Positions 27,808 through 38,574 of a DNA stretch of 64,000 nt are shown here, piece after piece. The notes beneath the pieces are model-generated. The model was not told the DNA's origin and searched no databases. It was given only the letters and a program-made list of their open reading frames with translations. The stretch covers positions 310,001 through 374,000 of the forward strand of contig JAHBWY010000002.1 in NCBI GenBank assembly GCA_019636735.1, in the 5' to 3' direction. The position numbers and the translations under genes were made by a program. This DNA comes from Phycisphaeraceae bacterium (GTDB lineage: Bacteria; Planctomycetota; Phycisphaerae; Phycisphaerales; SM1A02). Positions within the stretch are counted from its first letter, which is position 1; each line of letters starts with the position of its first letter.

Positions 27808-28198
27808 TCGCGAGTCAGTCGGGCCGTCCCGGCTGGCTTGTCGTTCCGTCCCTGTCCTCAGCCCAGGAAGCCCGCATGATCGTGCTGGTTCCAACGCTCC
27901 TTGCCGACTCCCGATGACGCGCCACGCGTCCATCGTGAGCCGTCGAGCCGGTCTCGCACAGCGGGCCCGTGGGGCCTGTTGGCAGATCCCGGAGGCCGCC
28001 GTGCCGTAACGCCGGTTGCCAAATGGGACAGGGTGAGAGGTGTCGGCTCTGCCGGCAGCGTCTCGCCCAAGGGACGGGCCATGTTCGGTGCTGCGACCGA
28101 GCGTGGCCCGTGTTTCTTTTCGCAGCGACATCTCGTCGTCCGCCGGGGCGTCACAGGCAGACATCTCGACAACCAGGCATCCATCGCAGGACCGTCTC
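27808..28198 (+). other. Long untranslated leader of the nusA operon
   Basis: About 390 bases between the promoter and nusA contain no open frame with known similarity. rimP, which often precedes nusA, is absent, and no tRNA (such as metY) is found. A CGGG/CCCG hairpin occurs near the 5' end. The leader may be regulatory, since nusA operons in other bacteria are autoregulated, or it may hold an unrecognised RNA. Confidence 0.45.
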
Positions 28199-29509
28199 AT
28201 GAACTCGGAAACCCTCCGCATCCTCGACTCCATCGCGCGCGACCGCAACATCGACCGAGAGTTGCTCATCGGCGATCTCGAGCAGGCGCTCGTCAGTGCC
28301 GCGCGCAAGCACTTCAACTCGCTCGACACCGAGGAGTTCGGCTGCGAGATCGATCGTCTCTCAGGCAAGGTGCGCCTCTGGCGCAACAACGAGGGGACCA
28401 TCGAGGAGATTCCGCTTGAAGCGCTCGGTCGGATTCCGGCACAGACCGCGAAGCAGGTGATGATCCAGCGCTTCCGCGAGGATGAGCGCAACAGCCTGCT
28501 GGATGAATTCTCGAAGCGCCAGGGCGAGCTCGTCACCGGCACGGCGCAGCGCTACGACGGCAATGTGCTGATGGTCCAGATCGATCGGGCCGAGGGCTTC
28601 ATGCCCCGCTCCGAGCAGATTCCCGGCGAGCAGTTTCAGCCGGGTGACCGCGTCCGCTGCCTGATTCTCGATGTGCGCGACGGCGGCCATCAGGTCCGCA
28701 TCGTCCTTTCGCGGGCCCATCCGGACTTCATCCGGCGCCTCTTTGAGGCGGAAGTTCCCGAGGTCGCCGAGCGAGTCATTGAAATCAAGGCGATGGCGCG
28801 CGAGGCCGGCTTCCGCACCAAGCTCGCCGTCGCCTCGGTGGACAGCAAGGTCGACGCCGTCGGTGCGTGCGTCGGCGTGCGCGGCAGTCGCATCCGCAAC
28901 ATCGTGAACGAACTCGGCGGCGAGAAGATCGACATCGTGCGCTGGAACGACTCGAGCCAGGTGCTGCTTGCCAATGCGCTCAAGCCGGCCGAGGTCGAAG
29001 AGGTCAGCATCTGTCTCGAGTTGAGCCGCGCCACCATCGTGGTGCGCGAAGATCAGCTTTCGCTCGCCATCGGTCGACGAGGTCAGAATGTGCGACTGGC
29101 GGCGCGCATGACCGGGTGGGACATCGACATTCTCACGCCAGCGGAGTTTGACCGCGGCCTTGAGATTCTCGAAGAGACGGTTCGGCCCATCGAAGGTGTC
29201 ACGAGCGAGATCCTCGACAAGATGGGCGCGCTCGGTCTCATCAGCGTCTTCGATGTCGAGGAGGTCCGGTCGGACATCTTCACCGAGAAGCTCCGCCTCG
29301 AACCGGATCTGGTCGATCGGATTGTCGACGCGTGCAGCGCCAGGGCGCGCATCGTCGAGGAGGAGCAGGCTCGCGAGCAGGCCGAGGCGGAAGCTCGCAA
29401 GGCAGAGGAGCACGCGGCGGCCGATGCGCTGCTGGGCGGCGGAGTCCACGCCGAGGTGGACGCGCAGGCGGAGAGCGCCGCGGACGACATTCTCGGAGGC
29501 GGTCGCTGA
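28199..29509 (+). CDS. nusA: Transcription termination/antitermination factor NusA
   Basis: A 436-residue protein with the standard order: N-terminal RNA-polymerase-binding domain, an S1 domain (about residues 115-190, GELVTGTAQRYDGNVLMVQI), then two KH domains (GVRGSRIRNIVNELGGEKIDIV and LSLAIGRRGQNVRLAARM). The C-terminus beyond residue 380 is acidic and Ala-rich and ends DDILGGGR, without the Escherichia-type acidic repeats. NusA modulates pausing, termination and antitermination. The gene is followed 73 bases later by infB, a near-universal arrangement, although rimP is missing upstream. Confidence 0.97.
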   Translation: MNSETLRILDSIARDRNIDRELLIGDLEQALVSAARKHFNSLDTEEFGCEIDRLSGKVRLWRNNEGTIEEIPLEALGRIPAQTAKQVMIQRFREDERNSLLDEFSKRQGELVTGTAQRYDGNVLMVQIDRAEGFMPRSEQIPGEQFQPGDRVRCLILDVRDGGHQVRIVLSRAHPDFIRRLFEAEVPEVAERVIEIKAMAREAGFRTKLAVASVDSKVDAVGACVGVRGSRIRNIVNELGGEKIDIVRWNDSSQVLLANALKPAEVEEVSICLELSRATIVVREDQLSLAIGRRGQNVRLAARMTGWDIDILTPAEFDRGLEILEETVRPIEGVTSEILDKMGALGLISVFDVEEVRSDIFTEKLRLEPDLVDRIVDACSARARIVEEEQAREQAEAEARKAEEHAAADALLGGGVHAEVDAQAESAADDILGGGR

Positions 29510-29570
29510 CGGGGCGGAGAGAACCACGCGCGGCAGGGCGGTGCCGCAGGAACGATTGTCAAGGGACGGC

Positions 29571-29582
29571 AAGGAGCCACAT

Positions 29583-29585
<3 letters not shown>
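29571..29585 (+). promoter_or_regulatory. Shine-Dalgarno site and TTG start for infB
   Basis: AAGGAG, six bases, then TTG. This is the only start that matches the IF-2 N-terminus; no ATG or GTG is available near the homologous beginning. The rare TTG may lower initiation. Confidence 0.75.
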
Positions 29586-32612
<3,027 letters not shown>

Positions 32613-32618
32613 CTCGCC

Positions 32619-33023
32619 ATGGGAAGGTCGGACCCGCGCATGCAGCGAAGTGCACGGTCCGGCGATGGACCGCGATCGCCGCGCCAGGGCCATCTCGAAG
32701 CGCGCTTGCGACGCGCGCTCCAGACGATTCTGGCGCGAGGCCTGCACGACCCGCGCTTCCGCGGTCTCGTCAGCGTGACCGAGGTCGATCTCTCGCCCGA
32801 TCAGGCGCGCGCGTCGGTCGGCATCTCCGTTCTGCCCTCGGAACATGGTCCGCTGACCGTGGCGGCGCTTCGTCACGCGGCGCCGCACCTGGCGGCCGAA
32901 GTGGGCCAGATGGTGCGCTCGCGTCGCCTGCCTCAACTTGACTTTCAACTCGACGATCGCCTGAAGAAGCAGGCGGCGCTCGATGCCGCACTCAACTCCA
33001 CCAAGGGGGAGGATGCTTCGTGA
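32619..33023 (+). CDS. rbfA: Ribosome-binding factor A
   Basis: A 134-residue small protein that binds the 30S subunit and helps process 16S rRNA. The KH-like core is visible with LEARLRRALQTILARGLHDPRF and VTEVDLSPDQARASVGISV, and the family-typical C-terminal LPQLDFQLDDRLKKQAALDAAL. The N-terminal 25 residues are extra, basic and Ser-rich. It lies six bases after infB and overlaps the following gene by GTGA, so all are probably cotranscribed. Confidence 0.93.
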   Translation: MGRSDPRMQRSARSGDGPRSPRQGHLEARLRRALQTILARGLHDPRFRGLVSVTEVDLSPDQARASVGISVLPSEHGPLTVAALRHAAPHLAAEVGQMVRSRRLPQLDFQLDDRLKKQAALDAALNSTKGEDAS

Positions 33024-34129
33024 AGCATGATGGTTCAACGAGCAAGCTCAACGCGATCCTTCGATCGAACGCCGTCGCGGCGCCGCCACCGGCCTCGAAG
33101 GAGCGGCCTGATCCAGTCGAACTGCTGGTGCACTCCTTCATGGTCTGGGAGGCGACCACCGCGCAGGCCGATGCGGCCATGGCTCGAATCAAGACCGCGG
33201 TCGTCAGCTTCAATGACTTTCGAGTGTCGCTCGTCAAGGAAGTCGTTGAACTGATCGGTCCGCGGTACCCGCTGGTCCAGGAGCGGGCGATCCGCGTCAG
33301 GGCTGCACTCAATGATCTCTACCGTCGTGAGTACGCGGTGTCACTCGATCGAGTCTCGGGGCTGAGCAAGCGGGACGCCCGCGCCTATCTCGAGAGTCTC
33401 CAGGGCATGGTTCCGTTCGTGGCGGCCCGCGTCGCGCTGCTGGGGCTCGACGCGCACGCCGTACCCGTCGATGACCAGACGCTGATGATGCTGGTGCATC
33501 ATGGAGCGCTTCATCGCGAGACGACGGTGGTCGAAGCGACTGGGTGGCTTCAGAGGCACATTCCCGCCGATCGCGCCCTCGCTTCGCATCTCGCGCTTCA
33601 GCGGGCGGCCGAGACATTCGTTGCCAAGGTAACGCCGCGAGGCGTGGCGCGAATGATCGCGGAAGCGGAAGCCGCGCGCGTCGCCCGGATGCCGCGCGTT
33701 GTCGCCGAGCCCCCACCGACCGAAGCCGAGACCAGTGCCACGCAACCCTCGCGCGGTGGCGGGAGCGCAGCTCGCGCCTCCAAGTCGGCCGCCGGTCGCA
33801 AGGGAACCCCCGCGACAGGGGCGTCCAACGGCAAGCCCGCCCCGTCGCGAACCAAGGAGAAGGCAGCCAGGGGTGGGAAGACGCCCGCCGCCCCGCGACC
33901 GAAGCCGAAGAAGTCGTCAGCGGGATCCGCGGGACGAAGCAAGAGTGCGCGACCCAGCGGCGCGAAGACCTCGCGAGGCGCACGGCCTTCGTCGCGCGCA
34001 CCAGCCCGCGTCGCCAATGCGAAGCGAAGCTCGCGGCGCGCGAAGCCGGCCTCGCGCCCCGCCAAGGGTTCGACGCGCGCGTCCGGTCAGGCGTCTCGCC
34101 GGAAGGCTGGAAAGGCGGCTCGGAAGTGA
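33020..34129 (+). CDS. Divergent HhH-GPD/endonuclease III-like protein with a histone-H1-like tail
   Basis: A 369-residue protein in two parts. Residues about 30-205 resemble the endonuclease III fold: PVELLVHSFMVWEATTAQAD matches the PFELL helix; the hairpin and following helix read LQGMVPFVAARVALLG (residues 127-142); and Val150-Asp151 lies exactly where the catalytic VD(T/H) is found, with the same 23-residue spacing from the LPG-like start. The catalytic lysine position is Phe133, and no Fe-S cysteines exist, so a bifunctional lyase is unlikely. Residues about 230-369 are a Lys/Ala/Arg/Pro/Ser tail like histone H1. It starts at a GTG overlapping rbfA (GTGA) and overlaps the next gene (GTGA). 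A DNA- or RNA-binding role is inferred. Confidence 0.65.
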   Translation: MKHDGSTSKLNAILRSNAVAAPPPASKERPDPVELLVHSFMVWEATTAQADAAMARIKTAVVSFNDFRVSLVKEVVELIGPRYPLVQERAIRVRAALNDLYRREYAVSLDRVSGLSKRDARAYLESLQGMVPFVAARVALLGLDAHAVPVDDQTLMMLVHHGALHRETTVVEATGWLQRHIPADRALASHLALQRAAETFVAKVTPRGVARMIAEAEAARVARMPRVVAEPPPTEAETSATQPSRGGGSAARASKSAAGRKGTPATGASNGKPAPSRTKEKAARGGKTPAAPRPKPKKSSAGSAGRSKSARPSGAKTSRGARPSSRAPARVANAKRSSRRAKPASRPAKGSTRASGQASRRKAGKAARK

Positions 34130-37100
34130 GCCATCATTCGCGGTGTCGATGGCTTCGCGCAGTCGGATGTGTGGCGCTCACTTGGGCGACCATGGCCTTC
34201 GCGCGGGAAGCGTTCGCTGGACCTCCAGCGCCGCCGCCCGGTGTGCCCGAATCAGATGTTCGAGTGCATGCCGAGCCCGAACTCGCGGCGAGATCACTCG
34301 CTGAGGTGCTCGAGTTGCTCGGTCCGCTCGCGCCACCGCAGGGGCCCGGAGTGGCACCGCTCGACCCCGACGGTGTCGACGCCGCTGAGGTGCGCAGGCT
34401 TCTTGAGCGTGCTCGGGAGTCGCTCGGTGCGGGAAAGCTCCTGAAGGCGATCGTGGACCTCGAAGCGGCCACGGCTCGAGACCCCGGAGATCTTGAGGCG
34501 CTTCGCCTCCTGGCGCAAGCCTTCACGCAAGTCGGCAACGATGGGCGTGCGCTCAATGCCTATGAGCGAATCCTCATCATCAAGCCCGATGATCCGCAGG
34601 CCTTGATGGCGACGGGGACCGCGGCGGCGGCGCAGCGGCAGTACAAGGATGCGATCCGCCGAATCGCCGGTGCACTCCTTGCGGCTGAGCGGAATGGAAC
34701 TCCACTCACGAGCGCGTCCCGCGTCATCGGCGGTCGAGTGCTTGGGGGCGTCCTTCGTGAGATCGAGTTCGATGTGGCGGCCATCGAAGCGTGGCGAGAT
34801 GCGCTGGTCGCGCTCGATGAACTCGAGGCCGCGCGGCATCTCGACCCCAACGCCGCTGCACAGGACACGACTCGGCTCCGTGCAGAGCTCCTGCTGGCTC
34901 GCGCCGATGCGATGGCGCGTCTGAGTCGATGGGCCGATGCTCTCGAAGAGCTCGAAGTCATCAAGGAACTTCCCGGCGTTGATCACGATGTCGTCCTTCC
35001 GCGCGAGCTCTACCTTCTGGAAGCCGCAGGGCGACGCGAAGAGGCCGAGGCGCGCCTGGCCGAGACGCTGGCCCAGCTTCAGGAGCCATCGGCCCGAGAG
35101 GTCGATCTCGCCCGCTGGCTTGTTTCGATCGACGCGACGCGCCCCGCCCTCATCGAGCGAGCGCGCCTCATGGCGAGAGAGCGGCCGCAGTCGATTCTCG
35201 CGGTGCAGTTCCTGGGCGAGGTTGATCCGAAGCAGGCGCGCGAGGCATTCGAGCAATTGCTCGCCGCGTCACCGGGGGATGATGTCTCCCTGCGAGGCTG
35301 GTTCGATGCGGCGGGAGACAGCGATCCCGACGCGCGGGCGAAGGCGCTCGTCGAGCGCCTTGAAGCGACCCCCGAGTTCGGAATGGCCGCGACCATTGCG
35401 GCGCTCTCGGGGGCGGTTGATGAGCGCTCGCTTCGAACGGCGCTTCGAGCACTGCCCGATTCGCCGTCGCGCGCAGCGGCCGAAGTGCGCCTCGCGGCGC
35501 TGGGTCGCGACTTCGGAAGTGCTTGGACGACCGTGGTCGCGGCACGGGCCAAGGCGCCCGATGACCTCGGGCTCGCCATCGCCCAACTCGAGGTGGCTGG
35601 CGCCCTCGAAGAGGCGTCGTTGATCGCGAAGCTCGAATCAGGAGCGCCCGGCACGGCGGAAGGCCTGCCCCCCGGCGACGAGGTGGAGCGGGCGGCGGCG
35701 CTCGCCCTTCGAGCTGCGGGAGAACTGGACCTTGCGCTCGCCCGGCTCGAAGCGCTTGATGCGCGCGGCGTTCGAGGCGCGGCCTCAGCGCGGGCGAAGA
35801 TGCTCGCCGACCGCGTCGCGCTCCTTCGTGCCGATGATCCAACTCGTCAGGAACTCGCCCTGACGGCGCTCCGTCGGGCGACCGCCGCACTCGAACAGAA
35901 CCCCACCGATGACGAAGCCGCCGTGGTCATGCTTCGGCTGCTCGACCCGCGCCAGGGCGCGGCGGCCGATGCAGAGTCATGGACCTTGCTCCGGGCCAAG
36001 CTGCGTCGAGGTCCGATGGCGTGGCTCGATGAGCGCGTCTCGATTGAAGAGGACATTGCCCGAGGTCGCGCCGAGCAGGCCGTGGCGCGGCTTGAGGCGC
36101 TCGCGCAGGCGAGGCCGTTCGATGGAGAGATTGTGGGTCTTGCCGTCAACTTGATGGCGCGCTCGGGGCGCGGCGACGAGGCGATTGCGTGGCTTGAGCG
36201 AGAGCGCGAGGCGCGGCCCGGACTGGTCCCTCTTCGTGACGCGCTGCTTGCAGCGCGGGTGCAGGCGGGCCAGAGCGATGCGGTGCTCGAAGAGCTGCGC
36301 CGCGCGATGGTCGATGACCCCGATGATGCGCTTCTCACCTGGCACTTCGAGGCGGTGCTCCGGGCGCTTGGGCGCCGCGAGGAGGCGGCCACTCGAAGCC
36401 GCGAGCGCCTTCTCGCTCGACCACCGGGTGTGCGTCGCTCGCTCGAACTCGCCAACTTGGAGCAGCGTGCCGATCGCCCCGGCGAGGCTCTCGAAGCGCT
36501 CCGAAGCGTGCTCGAAGCACCCTCGATCGGCGCGGCGCAGCGATTGGCCGCGGTCGAGATCGCCTCGCGCCTGCCCAACAGCATTCCGGGTCGAAGCCGC
36601 GTGCTCATCGAACTCGCCGAGCCGGGACTGGCCGAGGGTGGTCCTGACGCGGTGCTCTATGCCGCGGCGGCCGCCGTCGGCACCATGGAGGATGCGCGTG
36701 GCGGCTCGCTCAACGAGCAGCGCGAGGCCGTCGAGCGCGTGGCGGAACTCGCGCGACGAGCAGCGGCGACGAGCGCGGGCGCGAGTGGCGATCTTGCGAT
36801 GGCCATGCGATGGCGCGACTCCGCACAGATGTTCATCGATACGGGGTTCCCGCAGGCGGCGGGTGTCTTTCTTCGAGCCCGTCTCGAGGACCCCTCCTCA
36901 CTGCCGCCGGTCGCGCTTCGAGCGCTTCAAGCGGCGGCGTTTGCCTCGGATGCCGAGACGCGCGATCAGGCGGAAGAGTCGATCGCCCTCTTCCGTGCCC
37001 TGCGCGGCAAGGGCATTCGTCCATTCGAGTGGGCGCGCGATGTCGGTGACGATGAGGCGAGCGCCCTCGTGCAACTGGCCACGCTCTACTCGATGGTCGG

Positions 37101-37698
37101 TGATCGCGAAGGCAGTGAACGCCTGCTGGAAGAGGCGATCCTCGTGCAGCCCGATCACGCGATGGCCCTCAACAATCTGGCGTGGTCGAGACTCGAGCGC
37201 GGGCTCCTCGACGCTCGAACGGTCGAACTCGCGGAGCGGGCCCTCGCGGGTGCGCCCGAGGAGGCGGCCATCCTCGACACCCTCGGTTGGGTGCGGTACA
37301 TGCAGGGTCAACTGGCCGATCGCGGCGACGGCACCCCCGGCGCACTGACACTCCTGCGCCGATCGGTCGCCGTCAAGCAGCAGGAGCCGAGCCTCGAAGT
37401 CCTCGACCATCTCGGTGATGCGCTCTGGGCTTCCGGTGATCGAGATGGTGCCATCGAGTCGTGGCGCAAGGTCGTCAGAATCTCCTCGCAGCAATTCGAT
37501 CGGGCGAAGCTCCTGCCGCAGCTCGGCGCGTACCTGATCGGCGAGTGCGGACTTCGCCTGGCCGATCCCGAGGGCTTCTACGAGGAGCACTTCGGGCGTC
37601 CCACGCAGCGGGCGGCTCGCAAGCTGGCCGATGTCGAGGCCGGTCGCGCACCGATGATCGCGACTCCGCAGGTTGCGGGCGACGGCGGCGATCCGTAA
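34126..37698 (+). CDS. Large exported TPR-repeat protein
   Basis: A 1190-residue protein starting at a GTG overlapping the previous stop (GTGA). A signal-like segment (CVALTWATMAFAREAFAG) begins it and suggests export to the cell envelope. Most of the rest is helical TPR repeats, for example the DPGDLEALRLLAQAFTQVGNDGRALNAYERIL stretch (about residues 118-150), in two separate blocks near the N- and C-termini; the final block includes HAMALNNLAWSRLERGLLDA. A low-complexity Ala/Glu/Arg middle also looks helical. Such proteins often act as scaffolds. It is probably cotranscribed with the nusA-rbfA group, but no functional link is visible. Confidence 0.8.
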   Translation: MSHHSRCRWLRAVGCVALTWATMAFAREAFAGPPAPPPGVPESDVRVHAEPELAARSLAEVLELLGPLAPPQGPGVAPLDPDGVDAAEVRRLLERARESLGAGKLLKAIVDLEAATARDPGDLEALRLLAQAFTQVGNDGRALNAYERILIIKPDDPQALMATGTAAAAQRQYKDAIRRIAGALLAAERNGTPLTSASRVIGGRVLGGVLREIEFDVAAIEAWRDALVALDELEAARHLDPNAAAQDTTRLRAELLLARADAMARLSRWADALEELEVIKELPGVDHDVVLPRELYLLEAAGRREEAEARLAETLAQLQEPSAREVDLARWLVSIDATRPALIERARLMARERPQSILAVQFLGEVDPKQAREAFEQLLAASPGDDVSLRGWFDAAGDSDPDARAKALVERLEATPEFGMAATIAALSGAVDERSLRTALRALPDSPSRAAAEVRLAALGRDFGSAWTTVVAARAKAPDDLGLAIAQLEVAGALEEASLIAKLESGAPGTAEGLPPGDEVERAAALALRAAGELDLALARLEALDARGVRGAASARAKMLADRVALLRADDPTRQELALTALRRATAALEQNPTDDEAAVVMLRLLDPRQGAAADAESWTLLRAKLRRGPMAWLDERVSIEEDIARGRAEQAVARLEALAQARPFDGEIVGLAVNLMARSGRGDEAIAWLEREREARPGLVPLRDALLAARVQAGQSDAVLEELRRAMVDDPDDALLTWHFEAVLRALGRREEAATRSRERLLARPPGVRRSLELANLEQRADRPGEALEALRSVLEAPSIGAAQRLAAVEIASRLPNSIPGRSRVLIELAEPGLAEGGPDAVLYAAAAAVGTMEDARGGSLNEQREAVERVAELARRAAATSAGASGDLAMAMRWRDSAQMFIDTGFPQAAGVFLRARLEDPSSLPPVALRALQAAAFASDAETRDQAEESIALFRALRGKGIRPFEWARDVGDDEASALVQLATLYSMVGDREGSERLLEEAILVQPDHAMALNNLAWSRLERGLLDARTVELAERALAGAPEEAAILDTLGWVRYMQGQLADRGDGTPGALTLLRRSVAVKQQEPSLEVLDHLGDALWASGDRDGAIESWRKVVRISSQQFDRAKLLPQLGAYLIGECGLRLADPEGFYEEHFGRPTQRAARKLADVEAGRAPMIATPQVAGDGGDP

Positions 37699-37848: not shown

Positions 37849-38574
37849 ATGGCCGGACACAGTGCATGGAAGAACATCAAGCGGCGCAAGGCCGCCGTCG
37901 ACGCCAAGCGAGGCAAGCTCTGGTCGAAGCTCAGTCGCGCCGTCATCGTCGCGGCAAAGAGCGGCGGTGGTGACCCGCGCTTCAATGCCGGTCTGCGACT
38001 CGCCGTCGACGAGGCGAAGGCTGCCAACATGCCGCGCGACACGATCGAGAAAGCGATCAAGAAGGGGGCTGGTGGCGGTGAGGGGGAGAACTACGAGGCG
38101 GTGCGCTACGAGGGCTATGGCCCGGGCGGCGTGGCGATCATCGCGGAGAGTCTCACTTCCAATGTCAACCGCACGGCTCCCGAGATCAGGACTATCTTTG
38201 ACAAGAACGGTGGCAAGCTCGGAGTACCCGGGAGCGTCCTGCATGGCTTCTCCCAGCAGGGGGTGATCCTGGTCTCCGCCGACCGCGTCGGGGAGGAGCG
38301 AATGCTCGAGATCGCACTTGAAGCGGGGGCCGACGATGTGCGGAGCGACGCCGACGGACACCTCGTGTCATGCCCGCCCACCCGCCTCGCCGCGGTCAAG
38401 GAGGCCATCGAGGCGGCGGGTGTTCCTGTCGAGAATGCCGAGTTGTCGTATGTTCCACTGATGACGACCGCCGTCGAGGGCGACTTGGTGGCGGCCGTGC
38501 AGCGACTCATCGATGCACTGGAAGAGCATGACGATGTCCAGAAGGTCCACAGCAATGCTGACTTTGTCGAGTGA
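37849..38574 (+). CDS. yebC: YebC/PmpR-family translational/transcriptional regulator
   Basis: A 241-residue protein, the usual length. The start MAGHSAWKNIKRRKAAVDAKRG is the family signature, followed by NMPRDTIEKAIKKGAGG and the YEGYGPGGVAIIAESLTSNVNRTA block. Homologues (TACO1, YebC) act in translation of difficult sequences such as polyproline or as DNA-binding regulators. No ribosome-binding site precedes it. Its 3' end overlaps the start of the lipoprotein gene by 20 bases. Confidence 0.96.
   Translation: MAGHSAWKNIKRRKAAVDAKRGKLWSKLSRAVIVAAKSGGGDPRFNAGLRLAVDEAKAANMPRDTIEKAIKKGAGGGEGENYEAVRYEGYGPGGVAIIAESLTSNVNRTAPEIRTIFDKNGGKLGVPGSVLHGFSQQGVILVSADRVGEERMLEIALEAGADDVRSDADGHLVSCPPTRLAAVKEAIEAAGVPVENAELSYVPLMTTAVEGDLVAAVQRLIDALEEHDDVQKVHSNADFVE

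Follow-up and report, generated by a model that had tools for sequence, protein, structure and literature searches.

What does a protein related to DNA glycosylases, with its catalytic lysine replaced and its Fe-S cysteines gone, do directly after rbfA? The question is raised by a gene (33020..34129, plus strand) in the window, by which we mean the whole stretch of 64,000 nucleotides analyzed here, from the genome of a Phycisphaeraceae bacterium. The gene encodes 369 amino acids from a GTG start and is present in a single copy in that genome. Upstream of it, on the same strand, lie the open reading frames of nusA (28040..29509, start codon left open), which as a NusA query matched the same neighbor cluster at the loci of the family, and of infB, for translation initiation factor IF-2 (29148..32612, true start likewise left open), followed by rbfA, for ribosome-binding factor A (32619..33023; PF02033, E 9.6e-20). 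A Shine-Dalgarno-like sequence, read as GGGGGAGGA (33005..33013, plus strand), stands 6 bases ahead of the GTG. An earlier note on this DNA had described the frame as coupled by GTGA on both sides, and this was confirmed: the rbfA stop overlaps the start of the gene at 33020..33023, and its own end overlaps, at 34126–34129, the gene for a TPR-repeat protein (34126..37698, plus strand), whose N-terminus resembles a signal peptide by eye. The placement within a translation operon, also proposed there, stands for the upstream side, where rbfA is found, and not for the downstream side, where the coupled gene encodes the TPR protein and no translation factor; yebC (TACO1/YebC family; 37849..38574, plus strand; PF01709, E 1.8e-52; PF20772, E 9.5e-30) comes after it.

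The core of the protein (residues 30–200; 33107..33619) scores 230.9 bits against the profile of its own family. Searched alone, the protein gave no HhH-GPD (PF00730) match in Pfam and only weak matches to family models, namely NF053634, the DR2438 glycosylase (E 0.009), and ogg (E 0.037); an acyltransferase match (PF03417, E 0.31) was dismissed as noise. Even at E ≤ 1, PF00730 recovered just 3 of 69 members from the class Phycisphaerae, the best at 0.0012. The relationship was seen with a profile built from these 69 class members. Against the PDB, its best match was Deinococcus radiodurans endonuclease III-1, or EndoIII-1 (DR2438; PDB 4unf; NF053634), over columns 2–144 of 175 (E 1.4e-10; 8.1e-11 for a mutant chain), with EndoIII-3 (1e-6) and the plant DNA glycosylase/lyase ROS1/DEMETER (PDB 7yhq; 4.6e-7) behind it and OGG1 weaker. 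In profile–profile comparison by hhalign, the core matched 18 planctomycete Nth proteins at E 3.8e-6 and 12 MutY proteins at 3e-5, collinearly over 150–155 columns, while six controls (RbfA, YebC, NusA, InfB, TPR, and reversed Nth) gave E values of about 0.07 or worse (0.078 or worse in local alignment). Two AlphaFold runs, with a two-row input of the window protein and its closest relative (L031, from a Phycisphaerae metagenome-assembled genome, 65% identity over the best segment), returned pLDDT values of 39.5 and 41.3. As judged by the profiles, which support it well, the family core is a diverged HhH-GPD domain. The earlier note had called the fold firm from the distance between Leu127 and Asp151. 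That distance is indeed 24 residues, and the HMMER alignment to EndoIII-1 runs ungapped across the places of the catalytic lysine and aspartate; the call proved right on profile evidence, and this single spacing would have been insufficient by itself.

The same alignment sets Phe133 (33416..33418) on the catalytic lysine and Asp151 (33470..33472) on the catalytic aspartate, which we take to be K120 and D138 in E. coli endonuclease III; the proposed replacement of the lysine by Phe133 is thus borne out. Residues were counted over 130 aligned members, 71 from the class and 59 from outside it, after removal of four duplicates (L036, L037, L038, and L075, of L008, L023, L024, and L007, respectively) and of L102, a fusion of an HhH-GPD domain with a DNA methylase that falls outside the family. 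At the lysine place, the class rows carry F (37), Y (30), or H (4) and never K (0/71); the rows outside the class, for which the alignment of the hairpin region is less certain, carry any of 15 residues, with K in 1 of 59. Lysine thus occupies the catalytic place in 1 of the 130 members, and only 3 of the 130 rows have one within a single column of it. The aspartate is better kept, in 59 of the 71 class rows and 22 of the 59 others (81/130 overall). When the 178 columns are ranked by entropy, Asp151 comes 31st and Phe133 89th. Conservation is highest elsewhere, in a family motif of the form V-D-x-N-[ED]-x-R-V-S at residues 62–70 (33203..33229), which in the window protein reads VSFNDFRVS: N65 and R68 are invariant (130/130), the column of D63 holds D in 124 of 130 rows, and that of V69 holds V in 119 of 130. 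At the column which we equate with the catalytic Glu of MutY, the class carries S, A, G, or C.

The loss of the Fe-S cysteines, likewise proposed from the sequence, was confirmed, the window protein having no Cys at all. A four-cysteine motif of the C-x6-C-x2-C-x5-C type is found in 36 of the 59 rows outside the class and in 1 of the 71 within it; because of this distribution, the motif was probably ancestral and then lost in the class. The single class member of 71 that retains it (L049, 6475–7197, genome G239) looks like an intermediate in this loss. Regarding the lysine, the MutY proteins of the same genomes have Tyr at that place, and most class members retain Asp151, so the loss of the lysine alone is no proof of inactivity; an aromatic residue there is, taken alone, compatible with a monofunctional enzyme.

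The refuting outcome named beforehand, a grouping with active endonuclease III, was looked for in a maximum-likelihood tree quickly built from 124 rows, with support by SH-aLRT only, no bootstrap, and many inner forks left open, and it did not occur. The 12 MutY rows cluster together (SH-aLRT 100), the 18 Nth rows fall on one side of a branch (76), and all 89 family rows stand together (92), adjoining ROS1 and then EndoIII-1 and EndoIII-3. Despite the collinear match to bacterial Nth and MutY, the tree places the family apart from both, and its genomes carry separate proteins of the ordinary kind: PF00730 proteins over the Pfam cut-off were present in all 16 planctomycete genomes searched, and the window's own genome encodes a single Nth and a single MutY besides the gene described here. 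The identity of an active Nth was ruled out by the tree, the absent lysine, and the loss of the Fe-S cysteines. On this tree, the family traces back to the EndoIII-1/ROS1 branch within the HhH-GPD superfamily and is diverged from true Nth and MutY. Unlike EndoIII-1, which has the lysine, the aspartate, and an Fe-S cluster, the family has dropped the lysine and its class members the cluster, and it has gained the N..R motif. ROS1, a large eukaryotic 5-methylcytosine enzyme, is the nearest row in the tree from outside the family; it reads VDWKAIR where the family reads VDxNExR and, unlike the family, has the catalytic lysine in the alignment. The HhH-GPD fold is also shared with EndoIII-3 of D. 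radiodurans, which is reported to bind DNA with no glycosylase activity detected (PMC9268735); in contrast to the family, it has lost neither of the two catalytic residues nor the Fe-S cluster, and it is described as specific to Deinococcaceae (PMC10523315). The excluded methylase fusion (L102, 4976–6826 on the minus strand, G494:C5) joins the HhH-GPD domain to a C5 cytosine DNA methylase in one frame of 617 amino acids (PF00145, E 1.9e-65; PF00730, E 2.8e-7), with Tyr at the lysine place and the Fe-S cysteines present, and is possibly a repair protein linked to methylation.

Behind the core, residues 229–369 (33704..34126) form a basic tail rich in Ala, Ser, Lys, and Arg. The end of the protein from about residue 201 to 369 (169 residues) is 25% K/R with a net charge of +37, and is among the longest in the class. 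Over 67 class tails, those shorter than 10 residues being excluded, the median length is 42 residues, and the net charge is at least +5 in 63. The tail of one member (L136) gave a weak match to the histone H1-like HC2 (E 0.0022), below the cut-off. Of the H1-like tail of 140 residues put forward in the earlier note, the basic character is real, and the length is restricted to the window's lineage: by comparison across the class, a basic tail is a habit of the family and its H1-like length a local elaboration.

The survey of rbfA neighbors in Phycisphaerae that had been proposed was carried out on the class loci with long flanks, short contigs being scored as misses. The family gene directly follows rbfA (at most 500 nt upstream) in all 39, and infB lies within 3.5 kb upstream in all 39. 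On the downstream side, 23 of them have a TPR match within 2 kb and 24 have yebC within 6.5 kb. A start codon at position −4 from the rbfA stop is available at 40 of 63 class loci. Among the family's loci at large, L066 (6314–7909) has the family domain and HisG in one open frame; a neighbor cluster represented by HisG occurs at 23 loci. In L095 (4745–6360), several overlapping open frames each take part of the yebC matches, as in a frameshift or an assembly error.

Outside the class, 59 loci were hand-picked from the better hits in the phylum, about one per family, so that their fractions do not describe an unbiased sample. Among these, 49 of the 59 lie either at rbfA/yebC or at a second site, ffh-rpsP-x-maf-prfA. 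Thirty-one have rbfA immediately before the gene, yebC downstream of it, or the two together (5 with both, 5 rbfA only, 21 yebC only), and 18 of the remaining 28 stand beside rpsP, ffh, and/or maf-prfA, with domains confirmed by Pfam; the commonest order at this site is ffh-rpsP-gene-maf-prfA. At 10 of the 59, no translation neighbor was found by the rbfA/yebC and rpsP/ffh/maf-prfA tests, and one of these ten (L107) has the family gene enclosed, along with yebC, in a single longer open frame. RbfA and S16 both act in the small subunit. The same functional company at two unrelated sites argues against a single inherited linkage. This second translation site, the spread through the phylum, and the invariant N..R motif are new.

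The window core has a match (E ≤ 0.001) in 195 of the order's 201 genomes and in 187 of the 198 of the class. In the phylum, the family profile matched 272 of 294 genomes, a count that overstates the family, as it includes other HhH-GPD proteins; in the families f37, f67, and f95 (10 genomes), the weak matches are such proteins without the motif. These lineages appear to lack the family protein, which is hence not universal in the phylum. By these matches, it is nonetheless widespread in Planctomycetota and not a local oddity. In a look for relatives beyond the phylum, a scan of viral contigs gave no family member among 32 candidates, a scan of genome contigs one locus among 211 candidates, from the same class, and a plasmid search one weak partial match, annotated HesB, from Azospirillum.

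RimM, like RbfA, is listed as an early 30S factor in a review (PMC9032327). With PF01782, RimM was detected in none of 20 planctomycete genomes and, with TIGR02273, in 1 of 199, while all 10 named bacterial controls were positive with both; RimM appears, by these profiles, to be missing across Planctomycetota. The family protein is not a strict replacement, an idea ruled out by two genomes (G411 and G448, family f67) that have neither RimM nor a family member. Because of these two genomes, the link to RimM is at most suggestive, and only in that sense might the HhH-GPD-like protein be part of what replaced it. As for KhpA, whose replacement was also considered, PF13083 matched in 16 of 20 genomes, always below the threshold.

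Taking neighborhood and conservation together, we consider the chances about even that the protein is a catalytically degenerate relative of glycosylases, recruited to small-subunit assembly or to translation. A fuller and somewhat less probable version would have a Planctomycetota HhH-GPD protein, its glycosylase chemistry lost and its D-x-N-E-x-R face invariant, travel with rbfA/yebC or ffh-rpsP/prfA and act in small-subunit maturation, in a phylum apparently without RimM. The protein would then no longer be chiefly a DNA glycosylase, that chemistry being lost or secondary, and would serve the translation machinery as a nucleic-acid-binding factor, which would most likely act jointly with RbfA and bind the pre-30S particle or the precursor of 16S rRNA. 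The surface for this binding would come from the HhH-GPD core, the D-x-N-E-x-R face could be the conserved contact, and the basic tail might add non-specific affinity for RNA. Several observations count against a ribosomal role or fit other functions equally. A gene's neighborhood is an indirect guide to its role, and the downstream side of the NusA/InfB clusters carries unrelated genes, HisG and the TPR protein; the Fe-S cysteines of 36 of the 59 members outside the class would suit a protein acting on nucleic acids or in redox chemistry no less than a ribosomal one; and the pattern kept in the class, Asp151 in 59 of 71 members with an aromatic residue at position 133 in 67 of 71, could still serve a monofunctional glycosylase.

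That last enzyme, an active DNA glycosylase of the AlkA, MutY, or EndoIII-1 kind working with the aspartate only and coupled by its operon to transcription or growth, is to our minds unlikely, though the foremost of the alternatives. Besides the retained Asp151 and the Tyr of MutY in the same genomes, it draws on the nearest profile, that of the DR2438 glycosylase (NF053634), to which 60 of the 69 class members give a match at E ≤ 1, the best reaching 4.8e-11, and on the enzyme behind that profile, which acts mostly as a monofunctional glycosylase according to PMC10523315. The scores to NF053634 nevertheless stay far below its curated cut-off of 400 bits (17.1 for the window protein), the aspartate drops to 22 of 59 outside the class while the lysine place there is free to vary over its 15 residues, the presumed place of the MutY Glu is occupied by S, A, G, or C in the class, and the strongest conservation falls on N65 and R68 and not on the pocket. 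Of the earlier suggestion of a role in rRNA or nucleoid biology, the first half agrees with recruitment to small-subunit assembly; the second ranks as a rival. A nucleoid protein, whose core and H1-like tail would bind undamaged or damaged DNA without catalysis, agrees with the basic tails of 63 of 67 class members and with the weak HC2 match, and is made rather improbable by the translation-gene neighbors at two sites and by tails that are short (median 42 amino acids) and variable in length; basic Ala-rich tails are, moreover, common on RNA-binding proteins. Least probable in our view is a protein that reads or processes rRNA with damage or modifications, recognizing or excising bases on RNA as quality control of 30S assembly. 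A glycosylase-derived fold beside rbfA and rpsP would suit it, and SMUG1 is reported as a precedent for a DNA glycosylase acting on rRNA (PMC7826747); against it, the pocket is unconserved outside the class.

No account of the family was found in the literature covered, in keeping with the earlier statement that its role had not been described: no paper held both 'HhH-GPD' and 'Planctomycet', subscription journals and preprints being outside the coverage, and papers on inactive HhH-GPD proteins, planctomycete signature proteins, glycosylase neighborhoods, and planctomycete RimM had nothing on it. Since Pfam misses the window protein and all but 3 of 69 class members at E ≤ 1, the members probably appear in annotated genomes as hypothetical proteins. 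An essential-gene study of Planctopirus limnophila reports 108 essential phylum-specific proteins of unknown function (PMC10632474). If a relative of glycosylases was indeed recruited to small-subunit assembly or to translation, most of a bacterial phylum would have put a DNA-repair fold to work as a ribosome or translation factor, and the family would be a candidate explanation of small-subunit maturation in planctomycetes, where no RimM is recognizable.
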